Shown in pieces: positions 1,164 to 57,425 of a stretch of DNA of 57,630 nucleotides (within the stretch, counting starts at the first letter, position 1; each line of letters starts with the position of its first letter). The notes beneath the pieces are model-generated. The model did no database searches. It was given only the letters and a program-made list of their open reading frames with translations, and was not told the origin of the DNA. The stretch covers positions 1 through 57,630 of the forward strand of contig JAFQCR010000002.1 in NCBI GenBank assembly GCA_017416345.1. The letters are read 5' to 3'. This stretch comes from Clostridia bacterium. Its GTDB lineage: Bacteria > Bacillota > Clostridia > Oscillospirales > Acutalibacteraceae. The position numbers were made by a program, and so were the translations under genes.

Positions 1164-2948
1164 TCACTCAAGATATCTGAACATATGCACTCCGTCGTTT
1201 TTCTGATATACGTGCACATAGTCGATCTGGAAGTTGTTGGAGGCGGTCCATTCGGGCGCATCGTCCGCAAGACACTTGTCACGTGCCTTGAAGCTTGTGG
1301 CCTGGCTCAATATAATGTAAAGCGGTTGTGCAAAGGTTTCGTTCCATTGCTGTTTTTCATTGGGATCAAGCGAGAAGAAAACATTACCGTCACAGGCAAA
1401 GCTGCACAGATCCTTAGTCCAGACATAAGAGAAGGTGTGCAGTCCGTCGTTAAACTTGCCCTCGGGGCAATAATACTTCTTGTCGTTGGAATAAGTGCCG
1501 TCCAAAGACCAATGGTCTTTAACACCTTGCGGTGCCCAATAGGAATTATAATAATCCATCTGGAACTTGTTGGCCCAGCCGTGCATATTTGATGCAAAAG
1601 AGGCTGAATTGCCGAACATTTCAACAACATTTATCTCGGGGTTGAAGGCTGTGGGATTGTTTTCGTGAATGGTTGCTGCCCACAAAGCTATCCAGAACGA
1701 GCCGGTCGATCCGCTGTCGGGCAGAATGGCACTCATTTCAAGCACACCGTATTGGAATTCCATTTTATATTTGGTGACTATCTTGAATCCGTAATATCTT
1801 TCTTCATCATAGGTTGCATAGAAATTGAGCATACCGTTCTTGACAAATAAATGCGCAGGATCTTGCGAGCGTGACGACTTGCGGCCGTTGTGTCCCGTTG
1901 ATCCGTCATTCATAAAGACCCATTTATTAAGGTCAACACCTGTCGGATGGGTATCGGACGGAGCATCAAAATCGTCACTCCAAACCGTCTTATACAGCTT
2001 TGAATCATCATAGGTCGCCACGGTTTCGGCATAGCTTCCCGTTACGCTGTTTTGGTCGGTTACGGCCCCAGACTGCAGCATCTTGGCAAACTCGGAAACA
2101 GCCATACCCTTGGCCGACGGACTGCCGCCGTTGAGGTAGACCTTGTTGCCGGAGATCTTCACGGAATACTGATCTTTGTCGGTTATTTTTTCAACACCGT
2201 CACGCTTGGCGTCACCGACGATTATCTCGTACTGTGCGGCTTCAGCGTTGTCCTCAACGAGCTCAAGCGCAAAGCCGGTCTTTTCGGTGATAAGCGCTAT
2301 TGCCTCTTCGATCTGAACCTGCGTTACATAGGACGTATTATATCTCTGCCTTACAAACACGAATTTATTGATGGGAACGCCGTTGATAGCGGCATCTGTG
2401 TAACCGTCTTTTTTGGCGTAAAAATACTTAATGCCGCCTTTAACTCCTTCGGGCTTTACGAAGTTAGCGGTAAAATACTCGGCAGCAGCCGTCAAAGCAT
2501 CACGGCTCATTCCGTAGATAACGATCTTTTTGCCGATGGTGCAAATGATATAGTCATCAACACGGCCACCGACGTTGGTCAAAAGATAATCACGAGCCTG
2601 CTTGGTCTCGGGACGGTTGGTTTCGCCGACGAGGATCTCATACACATCGGTTCCGTCCTCGGTATCGGTCATATTTTTAATGTTTACGCCTAAAGTCGAC
2701 TTTATCTGCTTGAATATTTGGCCTGCAGCAGCCGAGTCGCCGCCATCGGGACGAACGATCCTGTAGACCGCCTCGCCGTTGGCATCGGTCCATTTCACAT
2801 CGGCCGACGAGAAAATGTCATCGGCCGCAGAAGCATCACTTGATGTATTTTTGTCCGATGAATCGCCGCAACCGACGAAAACACCCGCTGTAAGTATAAA
2901 AATAAGTGCCAGGCAAACGAGCCTTACGGTATGTTTGAAAACGTTCAT
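1164..2948 (-). CDS. GH16-like lipoprotein 1
   Basis: A 594-residue secreted lipoprotein. The signal peptide ends in a lipobox (GVFVGC, Cys about 27). An N-terminal region (about 45-320) holds two copies of an alpha/beta unit, each with a YEI-[IL]-VG-x3-R motif (EILVGETNR, EIIVGDAKR), resembling the non-catalytic N-terminal domains of GH20/GH67 enzymes. The C-terminal domain (about 325-594) has the glycoside hydrolase family 16 beta-sandwich pattern: an ILPDSG strand, the active-site strand, HTFSYVWT and FQIDYVHVYQ. GH16 enzymes cut beta-1,3/1,4-glucans or galactans. The active-site strand reads EINVVE (E438, N440, E443), so the usual central Asp is Asn. Both Glu are kept. Substrate unknown. 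It starts after GGGGGATATCA. Confidence 0.8.
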   Translation of the reverse strand: MNVFKHTVRLVCLALIFILTAGVFVGCGDSSDKNTSSDASAADDIFSSADVKWTDANGEAVYRIVRPDGGDSAAAGQIFKQIKSTLGVNIKNMTDTEDGTDVYEILVGETNRPETKQARDYLLTNVGGRVDDYIICTIGKKIVIYGMSRDALTAAAEYFTANFVKPEGVKGGIKYFYAKKDGYTDAAINGVPINKFVFVRQRYNTSYVTQVQIEEAIALITEKTGFALELVEDNAEAAQYEIIVGDAKRDGVEKITDKDQYSVKISGNKVYLNGGSPSAKGMAVSEFAKMLQSGAVTDQNSVTGSYAETVATYDDSKLYKTVWSDDFDAPSDTHPTGVDLNKWVFMNDGSTGHNGRKSSRSQDPAHLFVKNGMLNFYATYDEERYYGFKIVTKYKMEFQYGVLEMSAILPDSGSTGSFWIALWAATIHENNPTAFNPEINVVEMFGNSASFASNMHGWANKFQMDYYNSYWAPQGVKDHWSLDGTYSNDKKYYCPEGKFNDGLHTFSYVWTKDLCSFACDGNVFFSLDPNEKQQWNETFAQPLYIILSQATSFKARDKCLADDAPEWTASNNFQIDYVHVYQKNDGVHMFRYLE

Positions 2949-3074
2949 TGATATCCCCCTTTTTTTAAAATCTTAACACGCTGTATACTGCTTAGTCAAT
3001 GAAATATACAATAATATATGGAGTATTTTCCAAAAAACTGCTTGATAAAAAGCCTCCATAACCTATCTTATTCT

Positions 3075-3139
3075 AATTTACTATACCCAAATTAATGATT
3101 CAATAGACAAAACAGCTATAAATATAGACAAAACGGCTA
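3075..3139 (-). promoter_or_regulatory. Promoter of GH16-1 with tandem AraC-type half-sites
   Basis: On the minus strand TAGCCGTTTTGTCTATA begins at 3139 and TAGCTGTTTTGTCTATT begins at 3118, a 21-bp repeat with 15 of 17 positions identical. The second copy overlaps a -35 box TTGAAT (3103-3098), followed after 17 bases by TAAATT (3080-3075). The half-sites resemble the E. coli araI1 site (TAGC, then TCCATA), and 21-bp spacing with -35 overlap is the AraC class-II layout. The leader to GH16-1 would be about 120 nt. Confidence 0.6.
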
Positions 3140-3263
3140 AACCTCCTCAAAACACACGGAGTACAATATCACCGTGATCGGCAAAAGTTATAGAATCACT
3201 GCGGCAAGGTATCGATTTCACAAAATCTGACTTTTTCAATTAAAGCATCAAAAAAACTTTCCG

Positions 3264-3329
3264 TCGGCAGATTTGTCCATACAGTCGACAGATTCGTCTA
3301 TTGAAAACAATTTTTATAGTTTGTATAAT
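3264..3329 (+). promoter_or_regulatory. Promoter of the MBL-containing secreted protein with tandem AraC-type half-sites
   Basis: TCGGCAGATTTGTCCAT (from 3264) and TCGACAGATTCGTCTAT (from 3285) form an exact 21-bp tandem. They differ at three of 17 positions, all transitions. The second runs into a -35 box TTGAAA (3301-3306), then 17 bases, then a perfect -10 box TATAAT (3324-3329). This mirrors the promoter at 3075-3139 in the opposite orientation. Confidence 0.7.
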
Positions 3330-3406
3330 TATAGTGAAATGGAATAGCTGTCTAATGGTTATACAGTTGTTTCACAAAAAAATATTTTAGAAAGGATTTT
3401 TTGAAA

Positions 3407-6400
3407 ATGATCAGAAAGAGTTTTAAAAAGGCACTCTGTTTATTGTGTGCTGTCGCTTTGATCGCATCGACCCTGGTTGTGATGTCAGTAAGCGCCTCAG
3501 CCGCCGCGATCTCGAGTGACGAAAATATTTTCACATGTCTTGAAACCAAAGAAACCGAGACATACACCTTCCAGACCGAAAGCGGAAATGATATTTCAGG
3601 TGCTGCTTCGGCCGGAAACGGAAAAGCTATCCCTGGTGTTGCTTCTGCACTGAACTGTTTGGCAGGCACCACAAACAAGCTGTACCTTCGTGTCAGCAAC
3701 CGTGACACTGCCGCAAACGCCACCCTGGCTATGAAGTGGGCCTCTCCCACAACACAAAAGAGCGGCGTTATGCTTGGCAAGACCGGAAGTAACATAGGAA
3801 GCGGTACCGATCAGGCCTATGTGCTTGAGGATAATACCACCTATGAGATCTCGTACGATTACATCAACTGGAACGGTACCGGTCTTTCACTCAATCTCTT
3901 GGGTGTAAGCCACGCAAGCAACATCGTATTGCAGGATCTTGATGACGAGCATACCTACACCGTTTTAAACTCCACATCAATTGATGCAACCGCAGCTTCA
4001 AAGGTATGGACTACCTACACCTGCAAGTTTACTACCGGTACTTTGGGTAACGATAAGTATCTTTCGTTTGCTGTTTTCAGAGAGGCAACCACCTCTTTGG
4101 AATTTTGGCTTGATAACGTCAAGGTCTCCAAGGTTACCGAGATCGACTCTGACGACGTCATCACCTTCAACGACAACGGTAAGACCTATTATGCTTATCC
4201 CGACGCTCTTACCGCTCTGCCCGACGGTGACAACGGTGCTTTGGGTTCGGAGTTTATCGGTTGGGTGGATGCCGACGGTAACGCTGTGACCGAGGTTCCC
4301 GAAGCAGGCGCCGTGCTCAACGCAAAGTACCCCTTTGTGACCGAGCTCCCCGAAAAGACCGATTCCTTGTATCTGGCATTGACCAACACCTCCGAGCAGA
4401 ATAATATCGCATATAACGCTGCGAAGGGTATACTCGGTGTTGTTTCTTCCTCCAACTCAAGTCACAGAATATACTCCAGAAATGTGACCATAGCCGATGG
4501 CAGCAGCGCCATCATCATCAAATTTGCCAACAGCTGGACCTCCTCCAGAACCGTTACCTTCGGTAAGGCAAATGTTGCCGCCAGCGGTGCCGATGAAGCT
4601 TTTATCGTTGAGCCTAATACCAAGTATACCGTTTCTTACAACATAAAGCACGAATCGGGTGCAGGCGTAAGCTTTGATATTATTGCAGGTGCAGCAACCA
4701 ACGCTACCTCGGGCTATGTTTTTGACAGCTACGCCCCCGAGACTGCCGCCAACGCTTGGACGGTGCACACCTGCTCCTTCACCGCTCCCGATGCCGCAAC
4801 TCTCGGCGCAAACAAGTATCTCCAGTTTGCTATCACCGTTCCCGAGGGTGAGGCTATCTCCAACGTAGCTTACCTTTACGGTGTTACCATCACCAAGGTT
4901 TCTGCAGGTGATCCTGCCGATTACATCAGCTTTGTTGACGGTGACGATGTATATTACACCTCCGTCGGTGATATTTCCGCTCTTCCCAAGGGTCAATCGG
5001 CCGACGGTGATGAGAGCTTCCTCGGTTGGTACGACGGCAACGGCGACCGTGTGACCGAGGTTCCCACCGAGGCAGGCGTTGTCCTTACCGCACAATACGG
5101 CGTTATTAAAGACGGTACCGTCGCAACCTCTATCCGAGAGGTAAGCGGCTCCGGTTCCGATTACGTCAGCGCAGGTATCCGCTTCCGTGCACGTCTTGAT
5201 TCTGCAACGGTCGAGGTGGCCGACGAGGTTGGATTTATCCTTGTTCCCAACGGTGAAGCCGTTGATTCGGAAAACGCACTTAAGGGCGTTGCCAAGAACA
5301 AAAACACCCACATCATCTATGATCTCACCTATGACGGCTTTATTGACTACCAGGTCATCGTTACCGGACTTACCCGTGAGGGCGATGATACCAACCTTTG
5401 CGACCTTAAGATCGACGTTTATTTCTACTACATCTTAAACGGCGACACCAACTATGTAGGTCAGCCGTACTCCACCTCCTACAACGAGGTGCTGGCGCTT
5501 TACGAAGCCGACCTTCCCGTTGTCAATAACACCTTGACCGAGATCACTACCGCACCTATCGGTGAGGCCGCTACCGACAAGCTGATCGGTACCGCCCTCA
5601 CACTCACCCCTCCCGAGTATAAGACTACCATCGGAAGCGCATCTTATCTTGATGCCGCCGACGGTGCAACTCTGATGACCGTCACCAACACCACCAAGGT
5701 CGAGTATGAGGCTTATCTTGCAAAGCTCGACACCTTAGGCTATACAGCAGTCGTCGGAAATTCGAGGATCCTTTCCTCCTCCCAGAGCTTCAGCGCTATC
5801 TACAGCGACGGTACCAACCTTATAAACGTTGCTTTCATCGCCTCCGAGAAGACCGTTAAGGCCACCATCGAGCCTCTCGGCTTTGATAACGTTGACGATG
5901 TAAACAGTTACCTTTCTATCTTCCACGATGCTTCCGCTGCCAACCCCGAGACCTATGTTTGCGATCCGCTGTTTTTGACGATCGGTCTCAGCACCTCCGA
6001 AAACAATAACGATGACGGCCTCGGCTTCTACCACGGTCTTGGCTACATCTACCGCCTCGCAGACGGCAGCTTTGTCATTATCGACGGCGGTCACAGCGGT
6101 GACACTTACGACCACGCAGGCAAGATCTACTCTATGCTGAAATACTATGCTCCCGATCCCGAGAACATTGTTATTTCTGCCTGGATAATGACCCACGCAC
6201 ACGGTGATCATATGTATGTATTCAAGTCGTTTGCACCCAAGTATCTTGCAGACGAAGCATACAATGTCACCTTGAAGAACATCATCGCCAACCTTCCCAA
6301 TGAGAACTGGGTCGCAGACGGCGGTATGCCCGAGACCAACCTTGCTCCCTTCCGTACCCTTTACGCAGAGTGTGAGGCAAGAGGCACTAACGTTTATAAG

Positions 6401-7762
6401 GCACACGTCGGTCAGGTATATAACCTCCCCGGCTTTACCACCGAGATGCTTTACACCTTGGAGCAGACCGCTCCGACCGTTGAAAATAAATCGATGTCCA
6501 ATACCTCGTCGCTTATTTTCCGCTCGGTCATCGAGGGTAAGAGCTTCCTCATCACCGCCGATGCCACCAGCACCTCCATCAACCATGTAAACGCCGCATT
6601 CGGCAAGAAGATGGATTCCGACTTTGTTCAGGTACCTCACCACGGAACCTTGAGCAACTTTGCCACCGACACCCGTGCCGAGCTCGGCAAGTTCTACACC
6701 GATTACACCACTCCCACCTATGCATTGTGGCCCTCGGCCGAGGCAGGTATGAACATATACCTTGCCAAGACGGTTGACGAAAACATCAATGCCATTCTGG
6801 GAACCATGATGCCCTACGACCATATGATCGCTTTGGGTCACAATATTGAAGAGATCAAGCTCAACTCCGAAACCGTTGACATCAAGACCCTTGAGTATTA
6901 TGAGATCGGATACCTCCGATATGAGCCCCAGGCCATCACCACCGAGGCCGAGCTGAAGGCTATTGCCGACAACCCCTATGGCTACTACTACCTCGCAAAC
7001 GATATCACCGTTACCGAGGAGTTCACAGCCCCCTATTGGTCGAAGTTTGCAGGCTATCTTGACGGTAAAGGACATACCGTCACCTTCGCAAACGATATCG
7101 TATTTGAAAGCGCAGCCTCCAATAACGGTATTCTCTGCAATTCTATTCAAGGTGTCATCCGCAACGTTAACTTCGGCTCCGAGAGTGCTCCTCTTAATAT
7201 TGCCTACAGCGAGACCGCTTCGGGCGCAATGGGACTTTTCGGCTCAACGCTTGCCGATATCACCTTTGATAACGTAAAGGTCTATGCCGAGATCGCACAC
7301 ACCGTATCCTCAAGCTACGGCAACTACGTAGGCGGATTCTTAGGCAGGATCTATCACTCCAGCGGCCGTGCCGCCATCGCCACCTTCAAAAACTGTCAGT
7401 TTATCGGTTCTTATACCGACAGCGCTTCGGGCGGACTTAAGGTCTTCGGCGGATTGGTCGGCGGAATGACCGGCGCAGGCAGACTTAATGTTTCGGGTTG
7501 CACCATCAACGCTACCGTAAACGGCAAGAGCACCGACTCTGCGGCAGGTATCGGCGGTGTTATCGGAAGGATCTCCTCCGCACGCACCGTTTATATCTCC
7601 GACACGACCGCCATCGGTACTTACAACGGCGGTAAATATGCAGGCGGCATCATCGGTAACGCCGATACCACCTCGGGTATCATCAAGGTTACCGACTGTA
7701 CCGCTCCCGGTGCCCTTTGCGGCAACGCAGGAACCCGTGTTGAGATCATCACGGCCAAATAA
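3407..7762 (+). CDS. Large secreted modular protein with embedded metallo-beta-lactamase-fold domain
   Basis: A 1451-residue secreted protein. The ATG at 3407 is chosen because AAAGGA lies 10 nt upstream; an in-frame TTG at 3401 is too close. After a signal peptide (about 1-33) come two beta-sandwich units (about 45-240 and 320-505, probably carbohydrate-binding). Each is followed by a short repeat (FNDNGKTYYAYPD, FVDGDDVYYTS) ending in GW-x-D and LNAKY/LTAQY, and then a further beta domain (about 570-700). At about 850-1150 is a metallo-beta-lactamase-fold domain with D893, HAHGDH at 930-935, a TADA strand with D1052, and PHHGT (H1078, H1079), most like the ComEC-type extracellular hydrolase domain. 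The C-terminus (about 1160-1451) has GLUG/beta-helix-like GGLVGG repeats. No transmembrane channel and no cell-wall anchor were seen. The substrate (phosphoester, lactone or other) is unknown. The first 700 residues are paralogous to the product of 8044-10134. Confidence 0.72.
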   Translation: MIRKSFKKALCLLCAVALIASTLVVMSVSASAAAISSDENIFTCLETKETETYTFQTESGNDISGAASAGNGKAIPGVASALNCLAGTTNKLYLRVSNRDTAANATLAMKWASPTTQKSGVMLGKTGSNIGSGTDQAYVLEDNTTYEISYDYINWNGTGLSLNLLGVSHASNIVLQDLDDEHTYTVLNSTSIDATAASKVWTTYTCKFTTGTLGNDKYLSFAVFREATTSLEFWLDNVKVSKVTEIDSDDVITFNDNGKTYYAYPDALTALPDGDNGALGSEFIGWVDADGNAVTEVPEAGAVLNAKYPFVTELPEKTDSLYLALTNTSEQNNIAYNAAKGILGVVSSSNSSHRIYSRNVTIADGSSAIIIKFANSWTSSRTVTFGKANVAASGADEAFIVEPNTKYTVSYNIKHESGAGVSFDIIAGAATNATSGYVFDSYAPETAANAWTVHTCSFTAPDAATLGANKYLQFAITVPEGEAISNVAYLYGVTITKVSAGDPADYISFVDGDDVYYTSVGDISALPKGQSADGDESFLGWYDGNGDRVTEVPTEAGVVLTAQYGVIKDGTVATSIREVSGSGSDYVSAGIRFRARLDSATVEVADEVGFILVPNGEAVDSENALKGVAKNKNTHIIYDLTYDGFIDYQVIVTGLTREGDDTNLCDLKIDVYFYYILNGDTNYVGQPYSTSYNEVLALYEADLPVVNNTLTEITTAPIGEAATDKLIGTALTLTPPEYKTTIGSASYLDAADGATLMTVTNTTKVEYEAYLAKLDTLGYTAVVGNSRILSSSQSFSAIYSDGTNLINVAFIASEKTVKATIEPLGFDNVDDVNSYLSIFHDASAANPETYVCDPLFLTIGLSTSENNNDDGLGFYHGLGYIYRLADGSFVIIDGGHSGDTYDHAGKIYSMLKYYAPDPENIVISAWIMTHAHGDHMYVFKSFAPKYLADEAYNVTLKNIIANLPNENWVADGGMPETNLAPFRTLYAECEARGTNVYKAHVGQVYNLPGFTTEMLYTLEQTAPTVENKSMSNTSSLIFRSVIEGKSFLITADATSTSINHVNAAFGKKMDSDFVQVPHHGTLSNFATDTRAELGKFYTDYTTPTYALWPSAEAGMNIYLAKTVDENINAILGTMMPYDHMIALGHNIEEIKLNSETVDIKTLEYYEIGYLRYEPQAITTEAELKAIADNPYGYYYLANDITVTEEFTAPYWSKFAGYLDGKGHTVTFANDIVFESAASNNGILCNSIQGVIRNVNFGSESAPLNIAYSETASGAMGLFGSTLADITFDNVKVYAEIAHTVSSSYGNYVGGFLGRIYHSSGRAAIATFKNCQFIGSYTDSASGGLKVFGGLVGGMTGAGRLNVSGCTINATVNGKSTDSAAGIGGVIGRISSARTVYISDTTAIGTYNGGKYAGGIIGNADTTSGIIKVTDCTAPGALCGNAGTRVEIITAK

Positions 7763-7817: not shown

Positions 7818-7939
7818 TAGGTCAATACTTCGTCATTTACGCTTAGGTCGCTTTAAACGACCTTTGGTGTCAATATGCATAAATCTGCTATTTGCTTTTG
7901 TTCAAGGCTACAAAAAGCACTGTACACACTAAAAATGAA

Positions 7940-7968
7940 TTGAAAACAGTTCCAAATAAATATATAAT
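7940..7968 (+). promoter_or_regulatory. Sigma-A promoter of the second secreted modular protein
   Basis: TTGAAA (7940-7945), 17 bases, TATAAT (7963-7968). The leader to the ATG at 8044 is about 70 nt. Unlike the promoter at 3301, I see no clear 21-bp tandem half-sites upstream. Confidence 0.7.
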
Positions 7969-10215: not shown

Positions 10216-11994
10216 TCACTCAAGGAAGCGAAGCTCGCTCACACCGTCATTCTTTTGATAGATGTGTACGTAATCTATCTGGAAGTTGTTTGAATTCTGC
10301 CATACGGGATCGTCATCGGCAGGACAGCTTGCCTGCTGTGCAAAGCCTGTGGCCTGGCTCAAAATAAGGTGGATGTGCTGGGTGAAGGTTTCCTTCCAGA
10401 TCTCCTTCTCGTTCAGATCGACCATAAAGTAAACGTTACCGTCGCAGGCAAAGCCGCAATGATCCTCATCCCAGATGTAGGTGAAGGTGTGGAGCCCATC
10501 GTTGAACTTGCCCTCGGGACAGTAGTATTTCTTCTGGTTGGAGTGAGAGCCGTCCAACGACCAATGCTCGGCGTAGCCCTCAGGCTGCCACTTGGACTCA
10601 TAGTAATCCCGACGGTTGGACTTCAGCCAACCGTGAAGGTTGGAGGCCTCTGATGCTGAATTACCGAACATCTCACAAACATTGACCTCGGTCATATATG
10701 CCGCAGGGTTATCGGGGTCATAAGAATTAGCCCAAAGCGAGATCCAGAAGCCCGAGTTAGGACTGCTGTCGGGCAGAATTGCACTCATTTCAAGCACACC
10801 GTAGCGGTAGGTCATCTTGTTTTTGGTATAAAGCTTGAAGCCGTAGTAGCTATTCTCATCATAGCAGGCGTAGAAGTTCAGCATTCCATCATTTACATGC
10901 AACATATCAGCCGTCTTGGCACGCTTTGAGTTACGTCCGTTATGTCCTGCCGACGCACCCTCGGTGCTGAACGCCCATTTTGAAAGGTCGATACCGGTCT
11001 CGTGACCCTCAACAAAATCAAAATCGTCGGCCCAGGTCGTTGAATACCACTTGGCGGGATCATAGCTTGCAACGGTTGCCGAATAGCTTGCGCTCTGAAC
11101 GCTGTTGGCATCGGTGACAGCACCTGCGGACACCAGCTTGGCAAACTCGGAAACAGCCATGGCCTTGGCCGAGGGGCTGCCGCCGTTAAGGTAGACCTTT
11201 TTGCCCGAAATGATGATGGAGTAGGTGTCTCTGTCCTCTATTGTCTGCACACCGTCACGCTTGGCATCACCCACAATGACCTCATACTCCGAAGCGGCGT
11301 TATGGTCCTCAACGATATCGAGCTTAAAGCCGGTCTTGTTGACGATCAGCTCATTAGCCTCTTCCATCTGGTTCTGGGTTATGTATGACTGGTTGAATCT
11401 CTGCTTGACAAACACGAATGCACCAAGGCTGACACCGTTTATCGCCGTATCAACAAAATCTCCTTCGGAAGCGTGGGTATAGCTGATACCGCCCTTGACG
11501 CCTGCGGTTGAAACGTAAGTATCAACAAAATACTTCATGGCATCCTGCAGAGCGTTGTCGGAACGGCTGTAGATAACAATCTTCTTACCGATGGTGCAAA
11601 TGATATAGTCATCATAACGTCCGCTGACGTTTTTTATAAGATAATCCTTGGCCTTAGCGGTCTCGGCACGGTTGGTATCACCCACGAGTATCTCGTAAAC
11701 ATCGGTGCCGTCATCTGCATCGGAGGTGTTTTTGATGTTTACGCCAAGCTTGCTTTTAAGCTGCTTGAACAAAAACGCTCCAATGTTTACGTCGGCCGTT
11801 TCGGCACGTGTGATACGGTAGACCGACTCACCGTTTTCGTCCAGAAACTTAACGTCATCGGTGGAAAAAATACCTGTGTCATTTGTGCCACTGTCGGTCG
11901 AAGCCGTACCGCTCTGGGACTCGTCCCCACCGCAGCCGACAAACAATCCGAGACACATAATGACCGCAAAGATCAAAGCAAGTGTTCTTTTCAT
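10216..11994 (-). CDS. GH16-like lipoprotein 2
   Basis: 592-residue lipoprotein (lipobox GLFVGC, Cys about 21) with the same architecture as the other two GH16-like proteins here. Two alpha/beta units carry EILVGDTNR and EIIVGDAKR, then comes a GH16-type beta-sandwich. The active-site strand reads EVNVCE (E436, N438, E441), again Asn for the usual Asp. The SNPNSGFWISLW strand and the FQIDYVHIYQ end are typical of GH16. The predicted role is binding or hydrolysis of a beta-glucan-like polymer at the cell surface. The start is preceded by GAGGAGAGATATT. It lies head-to-tail with GH16-3. Confidence 0.8.
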   Translation of the reverse strand: MKRTLALIFAVIMCLGLFVGCGGDESQSGTASTDSGTNDTGIFSTDDVKFLDENGESVYRITRAETADVNIGAFLFKQLKSKLGVNIKNTSDADDGTDVYEILVGDTNRAETAKAKDYLIKNVSGRYDDYIICTIGKKIVIYSRSDNALQDAMKYFVDTYVSTAGVKGGISYTHASEGDFVDTAINGVSLGAFVFVKQRFNQSYITQNQMEEANELIVNKTGFKLDIVEDHNAASEYEVIVGDAKRDGVQTIEDRDTYSIIISGKKVYLNGGSPSAKAMAVSEFAKLVSAGAVTDANSVQSASYSATVASYDPAKWYSTTWADDFDFVEGHETGIDLSKWAFSTEGASAGHNGRNSKRAKTADMLHVNDGMLNFYACYDENSYYGFKLYTKNKMTYRYGVLEMSAILPDSSPNSGFWISLWANSYDPDNPAAYMTEVNVCEMFGNSASEASNLHGWLKSNRRDYYESKWQPEGYAEHWSLDGSHSNQKKYYCPEGKFNDGLHTFTYIWDEDHCGFACDGNVYFMVDLNEKEIWKETFTQHIHLILSQATGFAQQASCPADDDPVWQNSNNFQIDYVHIYQKNDGVSELRFLE

Positions 11995-12128: not shown

Positions 12129-13904
12129 TTATCCCAAAATATTCATTAAGTGCTGACCGTCATCCTTCTGATAGATATGTACGTAGTCTATCTGGAAGTT
12201 GTTGGTGGTGGTCCACTCGGGAGCGTCATCAGCCATGTTATTTCCCGCACCGGTTGCGAAGCAGGTTGCCTGGCTCAAAATGAGGTAGATAGGCTGTGTG
12301 AAGGTCTGCTTATAGTGAGGCTGCTCGTTATGGTCAAGCTCAAAGTAAACGTTGCCGTCACAAGCAAACTTACTTGTGTTTTCATCCCAGATGTAAGTGA
12401 AGGTGTGCAGACCGTTGTTGAATCGGCCGTCGGGGCAAGTATACTTTTTATAGGCAGAATACTTGCCGTCCAAAGACCAATGCTCAGCCAATCCCTGAGG
12501 TGCCCACAGCTCGTTATAAACCTCTCTCTGGCCGTTCTTAAGCCAACCGTGGAGGTTGGAAGCCTCAGAGCCCGAGTTGCCGAACATTTCAACAACGTTG
12601 ACCTCGGTAAAGAAGGCCGAAGAGTTTATATCATCAACCTGCTGTAATGAGTTTGCCCAAAGAGATATCCAGAAAGCATCGCCGTGAGGCAAGATGGCAC
12701 TCATTTCGAGTATACCGTAGCGGAAGTTCATTTTTCCGCTTGTAACCAGCTTAAAGCCATAGTAATACTGATCATCATAAGCAGCAAAGAAGTTCAGCTT
12801 ACCGTCACTGACAAACAAATGCTCGGCACTCTGTGAACGAACCGAGATTCTGCCGTTGTGACCGGGTGCCGTATCGGTTGCCCATTTCCATTTTGTAAGG
12901 TCAACACCTGTTTCGTGACCGTCAGCCGGAGCATCAAAGTCATCGGTCCAGGTGGGAACGTAATAGGTGGATCTATCGTAGGAGTTTATGGTCTGAGAAT
13001 AGTAGCCGGAGGTGCTGCTCTGATCGGTAACAGCACCTGCAACCAAAAGCTTTGCAAACTCGGAAACAGCCATAGCGGTAGCGGCAGGGCTTCCGCCGTT
13101 AAGGTATACCTTTTTGCCCGATACCTTGACCGAGTACTCGTCGACATTGGTGACCTCGGCAACTCCGTCACGCTTGGCGTCACCGACAATGACCTCATAC
13201 TCCGAAGCCTCGTTGTGATCCTCAACTATTGCGAGTGCATAACCGGTCTTTTCGGTCAAAAGCTTATTAGCCTCTTCAATACCGTGCTGTACGATATAAC
13301 CGGTGTTGAATCTGGGTTTTACAAAAACAAAATTACCAAGCTTTACGCCGTTGATCGAAGCCTCCGAGAAGCTACCCTCGGTAACGTTCAGATACTTGAT
13401 ACCGCCCTTTACGCCCTCTGCCTTTATAAAATTATTGACAAAGTGTTCGCAGGCCTTCTGCAGGCCATCGTCGTTCATTGCGTTGATAACGATCTTTTTA
13501 CCGATGGTGCAGATGATAAAGTCGTTCACACGGCCGCCTGCGTTAGCAATAAGATACTCCCTTGCCTGCTTGGACTCTTCACGGTTGGTGTTACCCACAA
13601 GGATCTCATATGCATCGGAGCCGTCGACCTTATCGTCAACATTCTTCATATTAACTTCTAATTTTTCTTTAGCCTGCTTGAAAATATAAGCAGCCTTTTT
13701 AGCAGCATTGTCGTCATCTGCAGGACGGATGATAGTATATGTATTATCACCGTCGTTAGTAAACTTAACATCTTCGGTAGAAAAAATACCGTCAGAGGTG
13801 CCTGCCGAGGTGGAATCGGTCGAAGCGGTGTCATCGCCCGAGCAACCCACAAAGAGGCCCAGACACATAAGCAAGGCTACTATAAGCGCAATTGTTCTTT
13901 TCAT
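12129..13904 (-). CDS. GH16-like lipoprotein 3
   Basis: 591-residue lipoprotein (lipobox GLFVGC, Cys about 21), third member of the local GH16 family. The N-terminal pair of alpha/beta units carries EILVGNTNR and EIIVGDAKR. The C-terminal GH16-like sandwich has ILPHGDAFWISLW, the active-site strand EVNVVE (E434, N436, E439), HTFTYIWDE and FQIDYVHIYQ. The Asn in the middle of the catalytic strand is shared by all three paralogues, so it is a feature of this clade and not a local mutation. Start after AAAAGGAGAAATTTT. It has a strong sigma-A promoter and two upstream repeats. Confidence 0.8.
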   Translation of the reverse strand: MKRTIALIVALLMCLGLFVGCSGDDTASTDSTSAGTSDGIFSTEDVKFTNDGDNTYTIIRPADDDNAAKKAAYIFKQAKEKLEVNMKNVDDKVDGSDAYEILVGNTNREESKQAREYLIANAGGRVNDFIICTIGKKIVINAMNDDGLQKACEHFVNNFIKAEGVKGGIKYLNVTEGSFSEASINGVKLGNFVFVKPRFNTGYIVQHGIEEANKLLTEKTGYALAIVEDHNEASEYEVIVGDAKRDGVAEVTNVDEYSVKVSGKKVYLNGGSPAATAMAVSEFAKLLVAGAVTDQSSTSGYYSQTINSYDRSTYYVPTWTDDFDAPADGHETGVDLTKWKWATDTAPGHNGRISVRSQSAEHLFVSDGKLNFFAAYDDQYYYGFKLVTSGKMNFRYGILEMSAILPHGDAFWISLWANSLQQVDDINSSAFFTEVNVVEMFGNSGSEASNLHGWLKNGQREVYNELWAPQGLAEHWSLDGKYSAYKKYTCPDGRFNNGLHTFTYIWDENTSKFACDGNVYFELDHNEQPHYKQTFTQPIYLILSQATCFATGAGNNMADDAPEWTTTNNFQIDYVHIYQKDDGQHLMNILG

Positions 13905-52946: not shown

Positions 52947-54365
52947 ATGAAAACCACCAAAAGAATCCTTTGTCTTCTGTTTGCGCTCTGCATGATGGTC
53001 AGCATTATGGCGGCCTGCGGCGGCGGTGACGACAAGACAACGGAAAGCTCATCAGTTTCCCAGAACTCTTCCGAGGAAGTAATTGTTTCGGGTATCGACC
53101 CCAGCGATGTTACGGATAAGTATAAGGACTTTGATCCTTATGCACAGATCCCCGAATCATCGAAGGGCGTTACCGTTCGTTACGCAACCTGGATCGACCA
53201 TACCCAGACCGAGGGTGCTATACCTCTGGCCAACTTCTATAATGACACCGGTATCCATATCGAGCTTTACACCGTAAAGCAGTCCGGCTACGTCAACAGC
53301 CTTATGACCAAGATCGCTTCGGGTGATATTCCGGACGTTTTCATCAGCAATGAGAAGGACCAGGCGTTCCCCCTCACCTTGCAGATTGCCGCACCCATCA
53401 ACAAGGTATCCACCGTTGACCTTGAAGACCCCCGTTGGGACAAGACGATCTGTGCTACAGGCACCATTGACGGTAACGTTTACCTTGTAAACACCATCGG
53501 TACTCCCTGGACCGGCTCCAACCTTGTTTTCTTCAACAAAACTCTGTTTGAAGAAAACGGCTTCAAGTCACCTGCAGATTATTATGCAGAGGGCACCTGG
53601 ACCTGGGACAATATGCTGAAGTGTGCCAAGGAGATCAAGTCTCTCGGCGCTGATTACAAGGGTATCGCCATCGGTTCCACCGGTAAGGAAATGGATATTC
53701 TTTGCGGCGCTGTTAATACCTCCTTCATCAAGTACGACTATAAGACCCACACCTTCTCCAGCGGTGTAAACGATCAGAACCTCCTTCGTGGAATGCAGTG
53801 GTATGCCGATGCGAGAGACCAGGGCGTTCTTGACGGTTCGTTTTCATACTTCAACAAGGGTAAGTGCGGTATTGCCATCCGTGGACCTTACGGTCTTAAG
53901 AACACCGGTTATTTCAAGGATATGAACCCCGAGGATGTAGGCTTTACATATCTCCCTGCCTTTGAAGAAGGCGAAAAGGGTCTTGTTTCGGCCATCTACG
54001 GTATGCACGGCATTATCGAGGGTTGCCCCAACCCCGATGCAGCAGGCTACTGGATCCGTTACTGGCTTGACTACAACAACTACGACCTGCAGAACACCTT
54101 CCTCACACCCGAAGCCGGTGTCTTCTACTACGAGCTTATCAACACCTCTGCAGATGAAAAGTACTTCACCTTTGACGATCCCTGTGCTTACCTTATCGGT
54201 GAACAGTACGGACGAGATGCTTTCTGGAACCCCGCACTTAAGGCTTCCAGCGCAGGTATGAAGACCGCTATCGACAGTGTCTCCAATAAGGTAGACCAGG
54301 CTGTTGCCGCTGCCAATAAGCTTATCAACGACAAGCTTGAGGCTGACAGAATCAGATACAAATAA
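52947..54365 (+). CDS. Family 1 extracellular solute-binding lipoprotein (SBP1)
   Basis: 472-residue ABC-transporter sugar-binding-type lipoprotein. Lipobox IMAAC (Cys about 23), then a Ser-rich linker. The mature fold begins at GVTVRYATWIDHTQTEGAIPLANFYNDTG, with SGYVNSLMTKIASGDIPDVFIS, FPLTLQIAAPINKVS, NGFKSPADYYAEGTWTWDNML and GADYKGIAI, the standard family 1 order. A conserved C-terminal coil reads NKVDQAVAAANKLINDK. First of three tandem paralogues. No permease or ATPase gene is nearby within the window. Start after TTAAGGAGGAACATT. Confidence 0.87.
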   Translation: MKTTKRILCLLFALCMMVSIMAACGGGDDKTTESSSVSQNSSEEVIVSGIDPSDVTDKYKDFDPYAQIPESSKGVTVRYATWIDHTQTEGAIPLANFYNDTGIHIELYTVKQSGYVNSLMTKIASGDIPDVFISNEKDQAFPLTLQIAAPINKVSTVDLEDPRWDKTICATGTIDGNVYLVNTIGTPWTGSNLVFFNKTLFEENGFKSPADYYAEGTWTWDNMLKCAKEIKSLGADYKGIAIGSTGKEMDILCGAVNTSFIKYDYKTHTFSSGVNDQNLLRGMQWYADARDQGVLDGSFSYFNKGKCGIAIRGPYGLKNTGYFKDMNPEDVGFTYLPAFEEGEKGLVSAIYGMHGIIEGCPNPDAAGYWIRYWLDYNNYDLQNTFLTPEAGVFYYELINTSADEKYFTFDDPCAYLIGEQYGRDAFWNPALKASSAGMKTAIDSVSNKVDQAVAAANKLINDKLEADRIRYK

Positions 54366-54378
54366 TTCCGGATCTTTT

Positions 54379-54458
54379 AAAAAAGGCGATGATGCACGGA
54401 GCGTTCAATTAGGGATAATTCGCCCTAAGTGAACGCTCCGCATTTCATCGCCTTTTTT
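54379..54458 (+). terminator. Long hairpin terminator after SBP1
   Basis: Arms of about 36 bases pair almost throughout (AAAAAAGGCGATGA with TCATCGCCTTTTTT at the base, CGGAGCGTTCA with TGAACGCTCCG inside), small loop, then a T-run. Much longer than an ordinary terminator. Confidence 0.8.
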
Positions 54459-54489
54459 TGTTACATTTCCCTGTTTTGAAACGTATTAT

Positions 54490-54537
54490 ATGTGTAACAC
54501 ACATCCAATTGACACAACGGCCGTGCTGCTGTATAAT
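54490..54537 (+). promoter_or_regulatory. Consensus promoter of SBP2-SBP3 with an upstream palindrome
   Basis: TTGACA (54509-54514), 17 bases, TATAAT (54532-54537) is a full sigma-A consensus. ATGTGT-AAC-ACACAT (54490-54504) is a perfect short palindrome four bases upstream of the -35 box and may be an operator. Confidence 0.8.
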
Positions 54538-54573
54538 AAATATGTAATAATGTGAGTTTCAGGAGGTACCAAT

Positions 54574-55959
54574 ATGAAAATTTTAAAACGGACACTGTGC
54601 CTTATGGCTGCCTTGCTTTTTATATTTGCCACCGCCTGCAGCAACGCTGATACCGCCGACAGCACAAGCACTCCCTACTCTTCCGACGACACAAGCTCCG
54701 ACACAGACTCGTGGTATGAACCCGACCCTATGCCGCCGCTCTTCGGTTACCCTTGCGGTGCAACCGTCCATTCGGGAAAAACCGATCACATTTACGCTGA
54801 TTCGGTTCCCCAAGAGCTTAAAGACACTACGGTTTATTATGCCACCTGGGTAGACCATACAGCTACGTTGGGTGCAGTACCGCTGGCAAATTTCTATGAC
54901 GATACCGGGATCAACGTTGAACTCATCACCTGCCAAGAGAGCGGTTACGTTGATGTAATAAAGGCTAAAGTGGCATCGGGCAATGCTCCCGACGTGTTTG
55001 TTGCGCCGAATTCAAGCTCGTTCCCCTTGACCTTTGAAATAGCGGCTCCCATAAACAAGGTCTCAAACGTATGCATTTGCAACCAAAGCCTCAACAGCAT
55101 GTTTTTAAAGCAGTTCACCGTTGACGGCAACCTTTATTACCTCGACACTTACTCGTCTCCCTATGCTGATGCGTCGATACTGTTCTACAACAAGCGACTT
55201 TTTGAAGAATACGGTTTTAAGACACCGAAGGAATATTACGTCGAAGGCAAGCTGACCTGGGACAATCTTGCCAAGTCAATGCGGGACATAAAATCGCTGG
55301 GTCCCGACTATAAGGGCGGAGCCATAGCACTGCAGGACGTTATAAGCTCGTGCGGTGGCGGCCATGTGAAGTATGATTCTGCCACACACGTCTTTTCGAA
55401 GAACACCGACGGTATAAAGCTTGTCCAAAAAGCGCAGGAGTGGTATTCAAATGCCAAAAACGACGGACTTCTGGACGGAAGTATAGAGGCCTTTTGCAAT
55501 AACAAATGCGGCATTTTGATAAGCGATACAAATGCCTTGAGAGTAAGTGGAATATTCAATAATATGGATCCCGAGGACATAGGCTTTAGCGACCTCCCCA
55601 CCTTAAACGAATATGATCATCCTTATGTGCCTACCGAGTTTAATTATCACGGCATCGTAAACGGCTCTTCCAACCCAAATGCGGCGGTCTATTTTATACT
55701 TTATTGGTTGGACGACATTAATTACGACCTAAATAACACCTTCCTTACTCCTGAAGCAGGCCTATTTTATTATGGGTATATGAATTATCCGATGAACCGA
55801 CACTTTAACTTTGACGACACCCTGGCATCGCTCGTTGAAAACGGTTACCGCTTTGGCAACGACACCAAAGACCTTGATAAAAACATCGACACGGCCGTCA
55901 ACGCCGCTAACAAAATAATAAACGATAAGCTTGAGGCCGACCGAAACAAGTACAAATGA
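54574..55959 (+). CDS. Family 1 extracellular solute-binding lipoprotein (SBP2)
   Basis: 461-residue paralogue of SBP1. Lipobox FATAC (Cys about 22), linker rich in Ser/Thr/Asp, then VYYATWVDHTATLGAVPLANFYDDTGINVEL, KAKVASGNAPDVFV, SSFPLTFEIAAPINKVS, EYGFKTPKEYYVEGKLTWDNL and the conserved C-terminal NIDTAVNAANKIINDKLEADR. The ligand pocket region differs from SBP1, so a related but not identical oligosaccharide is likely. It follows the long hairpin and has its own strong promoter. Start after CAGGAGGTACCAAT. Seventy-four bases before SBP3. Confidence 0.86.
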   Translation: MKILKRTLCLMAALLFIFATACSNADTADSTSTPYSSDDTSSDTDSWYEPDPMPPLFGYPCGATVHSGKTDHIYADSVPQELKDTTVYYATWVDHTATLGAVPLANFYDDTGINVELITCQESGYVDVIKAKVASGNAPDVFVAPNSSSFPLTFEIAAPINKVSNVCICNQSLNSMFLKQFTVDGNLYYLDTYSSPYADASILFYNKRLFEEYGFKTPKEYYVEGKLTWDNLAKSMRDIKSLGPDYKGGAIALQDVISSCGGGHVKYDSATHVFSKNTDGIKLVQKAQEWYSNAKNDGLLDGSIEAFCNNKCGILISDTNALRVSGIFNNMDPEDIGFSDLPTLNEYDHPYVPTEFNYHGIVNGSSNPNAAVYFILYWLDDINYDLNNTFLTPEAGLFYYGYMNYPMNRHFNFDDTLASLVENGYRFGNDTKDLDKNIDTAVNAANKIINDKLEADRNKYK

Positions 55960-56033
55960 CAAGTAACCGCAACTCAGATCATAAAGAAGCACCGATATTT
56001 AACATACCGCCACACAAGAAAAGGAGGAAAACT

Positions 56034-57425
56034 ATGAAGCTTTGTAAAAGATCACTCGTACTTTTGACCGTTGTTGGTATGGTTTTGACCTTGATAGCCT
56101 GCGGTTCGGGTAACGATACTGCATCCCAAACCTCGAGTCAAAGCATATTCAATACTTCAAGTGAACACACTCCTACATTCAGCGAGATTGCGAAGGGGTA
56201 TCCGCAGCCGTCACTTTATCCTTACGAAGCAATTCCGGAAAATATAAAAGGCTCCACCGTCCGTTTTGCCACCTGGGAGGATGAAACCGCCATCAACGGC
56301 GTCGTTCCTTTGGACAGATTTCATACCGATACAGGGCTAAAGGTTGAACTGTGCCACGTGCCCAAAAGCGGATATCTCAACACGCTTATATCCAAAATTG
56401 CTTCGGGAAATAGCCCCGACGTGTTTGTTTCGGACACCGGTACAAATTCCTTTCCGCTGTCGCTTCAGATAGCCGCTCCCATCAACAAGGTCTCATCGGT
56501 CAACCTGAGGGATTACTGCTGGGATGCGCCTCTGAACGAAATGGCAACTATCAACGGAAACGTTTATTTTGTAAGTAGCGATGGCTCTCCATGGGCTAAC
56601 GGTACCTTAGTATACTACAATAAACGAGTATTTGCCGATAACAATATTAAAACGCCCGAATCCTACCGCAGGGATTCAAAATGGACTTGGGATGCTATGC
56701 TGGAGTGCGCAAGGGCAATAAAGTCACTCGGTGCCGACTATAAAGGCATTGCGCTCGACCCAACATTAGTCCCGCATATTTTCGGCACATCGTTTATAAA
56801 ATACGATCAAAAAACAAAAACCTTTTCAAACAATGTGAAGGATGAACTGTTGCTGAAAGGATTACAGCAATATAATAACGCTAAAATCGAAGGCCTGCTT
56901 GACGGCAGTCTTGCCGCATTTGAAAACCATAAATGCGGCCTTTTGATAAGCGGTACAAAGGACTTGAGAACAAACGGAATATTCAATAATATGGATCCTG
57001 AAGATATAGACTACGCAATGCTGCCTACGTTAACTGAATCCGGCGTGGGTGTTTTTTCAAATGACTTCCGTATGTACGGCATCTGCCACAAAGCCCCCAA
57101 CGCCGATGCAGCAGGATATTTTATAAGATATTGGCTTGACCCCGATAATTACGATCTGCGAAGCTCCTTTTTAACTCCTGCAGCCGGTCAGTTTTATCTT
57201 TCGTTGACAATTGAGCGTGCCGGAAATAAATCGTTTTGGTTTGATGAGGCGGTCATGAGCCTTAACGGTGGCTTGGATGACATAAGGAACCCCCTGCTGA
57301 GCACCGACCAAGATAAACTGAAAAAGGCGTTAAACTCGGTTTCCAACAAGGTCGATAAAGCCGTGAATGCCGCCAATGCGTTAATACAGTCAAAAATAGC
57401 CTACGACCGGGACTATTATAAGTAA
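56034..57425 (+). CDS. Family 1 extracellular solute-binding lipoprotein (SBP3)
   Basis: 463 residues from the ATG at 56034, which follows AAAAGGAGGAAAACT; an open extension to 55956 overlaps the SBP2 end and has no ribosome site. Lipobox LIAC (Cys about 22). STVRFATWEDETAINGVVPLDRFHTDTGLKVEL, NTLISKIASGNSPDVFVS and FPLSLQIAAPINKVS align with the other two. C-terminal coil NKVDKAVNAANALIQSKIAYDR. The Asn-Phe-Tyr of SBP1/2 is Arg-Phe-His here. Probably co-transcribed with SBP2. A terminator follows. Confidence 0.86.
   Translation: MKLCKRSLVLLTVVGMVLTLIACGSGNDTASQTSSQSIFNTSSEHTPTFSEIAKGYPQPSLYPYEAIPENIKGSTVRFATWEDETAINGVVPLDRFHTDTGLKVELCHVPKSGYLNTLISKIASGNSPDVFVSDTGTNSFPLSLQIAAPINKVSSVNLRDYCWDAPLNEMATINGNVYFVSSDGSPWANGTLVYYNKRVFADNNIKTPESYRRDSKWTWDAMLECARAIKSLGADYKGIALDPTLVPHIFGTSFIKYDQKTKTFSNNVKDELLLKGLQQYNNAKIEGLLDGSLAAFENHKCGLLISGTKDLRTNGIFNNMDPEDIDYAMLPTLTESGVGVFSNDFRMYGICHKAPNADAAGYFIRYWLDPDNYDLRSSFLTPAAGQFYLSLTIERAGNKSFWFDEAVMSLNGGLDDIRNPLLSTDQDKLKKALNSVSNKVDKAVNAANALIQSKIAYDRDYYK

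Follow-up and report, generated by a model that had tools for sequence, protein, structure and literature searches.

Putative AraC-type class II operators placed back to back between a GH16 gene and its divergent neighbor in a Clostridia bacterium

Introduction

The best described counterpart of the sites presented here is the araI1-araI2 operator of the Escherichia coli araBAD genes, in which two 17-bp half-sites with TAGC and TCCATA boxes lie in direct repeat 21 bp apart and the promoter-proximal one runs into the -35 box. The latter (CTGACG, which we take to be the -35) overlaps the half-site by 4 bp, and the -10 is found at 37 bp. Another AraC-family regulator of E. coli, MelR, controls melAB, with its GH4 alpha-galactosidase gene. 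The araBAD loop and activation scheme are outlined in PMC4760080 and PMC6018408. For Bacillales, Bacteroides and Enterococcus, PMC3870299 describes direct repeats with a periodicity of 21 bp that belong to AraC-family regulators. The rhamnose-gene regulators treated there (partly from Firmicutes, and predicted by comparative genomics) share the motif architecture found here and differ in their group-specific motifs and rhamnose targets; the comparison concerns the architecture. Since such repeats have already been described, the operators reported below would be a further case of a known type of switch. A keyword search of the literature, of limited scope, found no published description of these particular operators.

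The locus that we have analyzed places the araBAD layout in front of a GH16 gene, and not of arabinose genes, with the -10 at 38 bp and a -35 overlap of 2 bp. It belongs to a 57,630-nucleotide stretch of DNA (hereafter the window) from a Clostridia bacterium, contig JAFQCR010000002.1 of assembly GCA_017416345.1. The genome that holds the window (2.47 Mb) is referred to as G000, its congeners as G001, G002 and G003, and contigs by C-numbers. An earlier note had read the region as two mirror-image AraC-type operators through which a single activator would switch on both divergent genes.

The two operators and their promoters

The features considered are the following.

1164 to 2948, minus strand: GH16-family lipoprotein-like gene, 594 aa (Pfam PF00722, 23.8 bits, cut-off 22), downstream of the minus promoter
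3075 to 3080, minus strand: proposed -10 of the GH16 promoter, TAAATT, 38 bp from the start of the proximal half-site (TAAAAT in G002)
3098 to 3103, minus strand: proposed -35 of the GH16 promoter, TTGAAT, overlapping the proximal half-site by 2 bp (TTGAAA at the G002 equivalent)
3102 to 3118, minus strand: minus operator (type B), proximal half-site TAGCTGTTTTGTCTATT, at 21 bp from its distal partner
3123 to 3139, minus strand: minus operator (type B), distal half-site TAGCCGTTTTGTCTATA, exact match
3265 to 3281, plus strand: plus operator (type A), distal half-site CGGCAGATTTGTCCATA, in the araI register
3286 to 3302, plus strand: plus operator (type A), proximal half-site CGACAGATTCGTCTATT, in the araI register
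3301 to 3306, plus strand: -35 of the plus promoter, TTGAAA, from consensus scan and operator alignment
3324 to 3329, plus strand: -10 of the plus promoter, TATAAT, from consensus scan and operator alignment
3401 to 7762, plus strand: gene following the plus promoter; its product, of 1453 aa, begins with a signal-like segment, matches CBM_4_9 and contains an HAHGDH motif

The four 17-mers picked out by the earlier note were found to the letter (minus strand from 3139 and 3118, plus strand from 3264 and 3285), and both pairs are direct repeats exactly 21 bp apart, as it had said. Its register is the right one for the minus pair and begins one base early for the plus pair, judged against the minus pair and araI, and we have therefore listed the latter in the araI register. 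In this register the proximal half-site enters the -35 box by 2 bp on both strands, in agreement with the note, and the resemblance that it saw to araI1 is also real: the minus distal half-site is identical to E. coli araI1 at 13 of 17 positions, and the four type-B distal half-sites discussed below reach 13-14/17. The label of metallo-beta-lactamase given to the plus-side product fared less well, the HAHGDH motif being metallo-beta-lactamase-like but without a Pfam or NCBIfam match to that family at E 0.001.

On both strands of the window, only two 17-mers reach 13/17 or more to araI1, the minus distal half-site and one on the minus strand at 7890. The latter is a single half-site in reverse orientation (7874-7890, TAGCAGATTTATGCATA, 14/17), located in the gap before a 715-aa paralogue of the plus-side gene, for which a TTGAAA-17-TATAAT is discernible by eye at 7940-7968. 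Allowing up to 3 mismatches, the window has no other type-B half-site that could correspond to araO2, the third half-site involved in looping over some 200 bp in araBAD, and a more degenerate copy may exist.

The plus promoter, TTGAAA-17-TATAAT at 3301-3329, agrees with the consensus at 11 of 12 positions. The minus promoter (TTGAAT-17-TAAATT, 3103-3075) was placed by aligning it with the plus promoter and with G002, and is absent from the six sites returned by a promoter consensus scan (2.2 expected). In both cases the proximal half-site overlaps a sigma-70-type -35, the arrangement of a class II operator, as judged from the letters only. Nearer to the GH16 gene the consensus scan detected another minus-strand promoter-like site, TTGACT-18-TAAGAT with a TG (2999-2970), which could be an alternative GH16 promoter. 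The leader between operator and GH16 start contains a block conserved with G002 (2975-3030, minus strand, GAAAATACTCCATATATTATTGTATATTTCATTGACT...ATACAGCGTGTTAA) that includes this site. Rfam gave no matches up to E 1 in 2900-3450.

The most regular aspect of the promoters is the position of the -10. When nine related operators were aligned on the start of the proximal half-site, TANNNT was found at offset 38 in all nine and at any other offset between 25 and 59 in at most four. The nine represent six independent loci: GH16 (G000 and G002), GH4 (G000 and G002), C13 with its G002 ortholog C61, the window plus operator, C17 and C36. For C13 and C61 we placed the registers by eye, prior to inspecting the -10. 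The -35 boxes are TTGAAA or TTGAAT at the GH16 and type-A promoters and TTCATT, TTCACT, TTTCAA, TTCCTT and TTCCAT at the remaining five operators. Such non-consensus boxes are what a requirement for an activator would predict.

Recurrence and conservation of the minus operator

The generic tandem pattern, at up to 3 mismatches, occurs at three places of G000, both window operators and C17:54923-54963 (reversed control, 0). The earlier note had proposed to look for the pair before other secreted carbohydrate genes, and one further place of this kind does exist, in front of the solute-binding lipoprotein-like gene of C17, but the pair is not widespread. Among 60 genomes, the pattern was found at two places of G002, upstream of the ortholog of the GH16 gene and of a GH4 gene, each with 3 mismatches, and it had no match in G001 or G003, the latter carrying a GH16 relative at 41%. 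Ten matches at 2-3 mismatches appeared in seven genomes of other genera, the reversed control giving five in four genomes.

The GH16 ortholog of G002 (81%) retains the tandem pair and has a different neighbor. The homology between window and G002 spans 1185-3141 at 76% and stops at the edge of the operator, suggesting that the operator has travelled with the GH16 gene while the neighbor changed. The alignment across relatives called for by the earlier note thus speaks for the minus operator, in one congener only, and leaves the plus operator without an ortholog. No AraC gene adjoins GH16 within the first 9 kb of the window. In G002, a GH38 gene adjoins it with another AraC gene behind (L100:599-1435), and this gene, only the GH38 away, could be the GH16 regulator there.

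A different AraC gene is pointed to by the half-sites themselves. With 0-1 mismatch, the type-B half-site TTAGCCGTTTTGTCYATA is found in the four genus genomes only at the window minus operator, at C2:154329 (G000) and at C100 and C123 (G002), two places in each genome and all four at GH16 or at the gap between GH4 and an AraC gene that we call AraC-B (C2:154387-155229 in G000, outside the window). Without mismatches, the G000 occurrences are the window distal site and the GH4/AraC-B gap. Weaker matches are uninformative, since the totals with up to 3 mismatches (10, 0, 10 and 1 in G000-G003) are no higher than those of the reversed control (14, 10, 14 and 18). C2 of G000 and C100 of G002 are the same locus, with GH4 divergent from AraC-B in both; the AraC-B orthologs are about 66-67% identical, and the 18-mer TTAGCCGTTTTGTCCATA is identical in the two gaps. 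The G000 GH4 pair is 20 bp apart and its second half-site is degenerate. The type-B half-site is thus linked to an AraC-family gene in both genomes, and AraC-B is probably the protein that reads the minus pair.

The GH4 product scores 484.7 bits as an alpha-galactosidase against a cut-off of 486, and is a probable member of this family. Its neighbors in G002 resemble MglA and MglC (parts of a galactose transporter) and N-acetylneuraminate lyase, all under the curated cut-offs. Together, they provide a hint of a galactoside regulon. The pairing of an AraC-family regulator with a GH4 alpha-galactosidase gene recalls MelR-melAB; however, the best NCBIfam model for AraC-B is AraC, and the MelR model is absent among the matches listed (25 of 32). 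The model of E. coli AraC itself (NF007860) gives 112.7 bits, under its cut-off of 208, and among solved structures the DNA-binding domain of E. coli AraC comes nearest to AraC-B (E 5e-19).

A general GH16 operator was also considered and ruled out, no tandem pair being present upstream of the other GH16 paralogues scanned. GH16-type matches number at least 22 in either genome, the scored share of the first-look candidates being 22 of 50 in G000 and 22 of 47 in G002. The pair was absent from 21 upstream regions of G000, which are all the others of the 22 listed, and from 17 of the other 21 listed in G002 (16 plus the C100 one inside L114; C109, C148, C149 and C152 were left out).

Two observations on these genes were made in passing. 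The GH16 motif is ordinarily ExDxxE. In the G000 and G002 genes examined it reads ExNxxE in seven of ten (three in the window, at 1164-2948, 10216-11994 and 12129-13904, and those of C13 and G002 C123 plus two of G002 C73), the other three having ExDxxE. Two GH16 matches of the 46.7-kb G000 contig C8 (5341-7050 and 39617-41326) score identically and are preceded by the same DNA in opposite orientation, which points either to an inverted duplication of recent date or to an artefact of assembly.

One regulator or two

Half-sites of one type, be it minus or plus, have a mean identity of 12.0-15.0/17, and those of different types 9.5-11.0/17. The type-B sites recur with GH4 and the type-A sites with the C17 binding protein, the two being found together only in the window gap, and the type-A pair was not found in G002, where type B persists and a full-length plus-side gene is missing. 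These differences leave unsupported the single activator of both genes proposed by the earlier note, and incline us towards two different regulators for the minus and plus operators. One AraC-family protein acting on both pairs and switching on the divergent genes together would be compatible with some shared traits: both proximal half-sites end in GTCTATTGAA, with an identical run into the -35, the TCYAT box is common to the two types, and the E. coli araI1 and araI2, which are read by one protein, are alike at only 8 of 17 positions. Along the same lines, the C36 operator CAGCAGATTTGTGTATA is about equally near to both (mean of 12.7/17 to the minus pair and 12.0 to the plus pair), so that types A and B are not sharply separated. 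Given the separate target sets, we regard a common activator as possible but unlikely.

The plus operator

The type-A consensus, YGRC-AGATTYG-TCYAT, is common only to the window plus operator and to that of the C17 sugar-binding-protein gene, the only places in the four genus genomes where the half-site occurs with 0 mismatches. The plus pair is closest to the C17 pair (mean 14.0/17), as opposed to 10.0-11.0 for the type-B pairs (9.5-10.5 when C17 is compared with type B). With up to 2 mismatches, the half-site pattern gives 18 matches in G000 against 15 in the reversed control, and for this reason only matches with 0-1 mismatch have been used. Pattern scans of the genus genomes did not find the type-A pair in congeners. 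In G002 there is no full-length relative of the 1453-aa plus-side gene, the best match being one 124-residue module. The C17 binding protein has there a best whole match of 62% and a contig-edge fragment (C79) of 67%, a G000 paralogue being at 65%, and no 17-mer of the C79 locus is above 12/17 to a type-A half-site. Three tandem paralogues of this solute-binding protein (42-57% identical to it) are located at the end of the window (52947-57425).

Since the plus promoter is near consensus, an activator may be unnecessary, and the operator might serve for repression or fine tuning instead. Both type-A promoters (window plus and C17) have TTGAAA-17-TATAAT, against the poor -35 boxes TTCATT and TTCACT of the GH4 promoters. 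However, the half-sites lie upstream of and against the -35, with an offset of 38 bp that the weak promoters share, and we consider a role other than activation rather improbable.

AraC-family regulators of the genome

HTH_18 matches number 73 in the genome (72 exceed the cut-off), and there is a single LytTR match, which is on contig C22 and away from the operators. These numbers bear on the possibility that the sites belong to another family that binds in tandem. LytTR sites of the AgrA/VirR type are direct repeats about 21 bp apart beside the -35, so that the layout by itself would fit, and the ACAGATTYG of the plus sites, which we assume to be loosely similar to LytTR boxes, has been counted in their favor. 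Against the single LytTR match stand the abundance of HTH_18 proteins, the link of the type-B half-site to conserved AraC genes and an identity to araI1 of 10-14/17 for type-B half-sites (8-12/17 for type A), making a LytTR origin very unlikely.

In resamplings of the intergenic 2949-3400, 17-mer pairs with at least 14 matches appeared at 21 bp in 0 of 1000 and at any spacing from 17 to 40 in 36 of 1000; across the whole window, 14/17 pairs at 21 bp are found at three places, both operators and one at 242 rich in T/A. Coincidental repeats in AT-rich DNA could thus provide an isolated pair at some spacing, but have a negligible probability of explaining two pairs at 21 bp within one intergenic region, the minus one conserved in G002, with a pattern rare in its own genome. 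The resamplings, here and below, are first-order Markov and preserve dinucleotide content on average, inexactly. Taken together, the geometry, the conservation of the minus operator in G002, the link of its half-site to a conserved AraC gene and the wealth of AraC proteins bear out the class II reading of the earlier note, and the sites at 3075-3329 are very probably operators of this type.

The spacing is also prominent in front of the AraC genes themselves. Upstream of 65 AraC entries, 17-mer repeats had a spacing of 21 in five regions, against 0.35 in resamplings; the next-best spacing was 31 (four regions against 0.7). The entries come from 70 loci for the 73 HTH_18 matches (three matches were unfetched and others filtered), one being a partial copy of C36:1770, and of the five regions just C36 belongs to the nine aligned operators. 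An open scan of the G000 loci for pairs of at least 12/17 followed by a -10-like box at offset 38 counted 25 rows at spacing 21 and 0-10 at the other spacings from 15 to 30 (10 at 20). We give it little weight, because the loci were selected, the rows overlap one another and several of them describe a single place.

The closest G000 relatives of AraC-B are C36:2788, C13:1755, C36:1770 and C17:69683. A profile scan of the genome contigs with an AraC-B alignment gave two loci, the G002 record and a distant relative, and no G002 relatives at the level of C36 were found beyond the C13 ortholog (threshold 1e-20, scores for 40 of 45 candidates), a type-A pair likewise not being found there. Between C36:1770 and a divergent gene whose product has a signal-like N-terminus lies an operator of three copies at 21 bp, and C36:1770 has CAGCAGATTTATGTATA before TTGACG-17-TATAAT; at the corresponding place its neighbor C36:2788 has a reverse half-site, CAGCAGGTTTATCCATA, before its own TTGACT-17-TATAAT. 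The half-site before C36:2788 is 14/17 to the plus distal one, 14 to its C36 neighbor and 13 to the GH4 type-B half-site. In 93 G000 loci (486 kb, both strands), 14/17 to some type-A half-site is reached at eight distinct places, those upstream of the AraC genes C36:2788 and C22:5779 among them, and matches this frequent make C36:2788 only a weak hint as the reader of the plus pair.

The two AraC genes of C36 form a tandem pair (L209, C36:270-4064) whose second recognition helices differ, GFRDPLYF in C36:2788 and GFKNQLYF in C36:1770, as do the boxes, TCCATA and TGTATA. The residues taken to contact DNA in AraC (Ser208, His212 and Asp256) have been kept out of the evidence, a literature search having given no confirmation of them. 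A more speculative possibility is that the AraC paralogues of this AraC-rich gut lineage read dialects of one operator on a rigid chassis, with half-sites of 17 bp that are mostly spaced by 21 bp and a -10 at 38 bp. Right-hand boxes and helices pair as TGTATA with GFKN (C36:1770), TCCATA with GFRD (C36:2788), TCYATA with GFED (AraC-B) and TACAWW with GFSD (C13), a covariation of four points in which D goes with two different boxes and the GLSD of G002 AraC-B with the same box as GFED. If true, the window gap would hold two dialects back to back, and the GH16 enzyme and the secreted protein could be switched separately.

A model of the locus and its meaning

We propose that 3075-3329 contains two independent class II AraC-type operator-promoters placed back to back. 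At each of them an AraC-family dimer, with its presumed ligand, would occupy the two 17-bp direct-repeat half-sites at 21 bp, with the proximal subunit touching the -35, and would recruit RNA polymerase to the -10 at its constant offset of 38 bp. The minus operator (type B, TAGCCGTTTTGTCYATA) would serve a small regulon of GH16 and GH4 (the probable alpha-galactosidase), its driver most likely being AraC-B, the paralogue diverging from GH4. The plus operator (type A), shared with the C17 ABC sugar-binding-protein gene, would most likely be read by a different AraC paralogue. We give this whole statement, two class II operators with AraC-B on the minus one and another paralogue on the plus one, a probability of about 0.6.

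The mechanism is textbook, and what the sites provide is a sequence-level entry into the enzyme wiring of a gut bacterium with 72 HTH_18 and at least 22 GH16-type matches. Two small regulons are now testable, one of GH4 and GH16 and the other of the secreted protein and the sugar-binding protein. The tandem AraC pair of C36 may offer, in addition, a natural test of AraC specificity.
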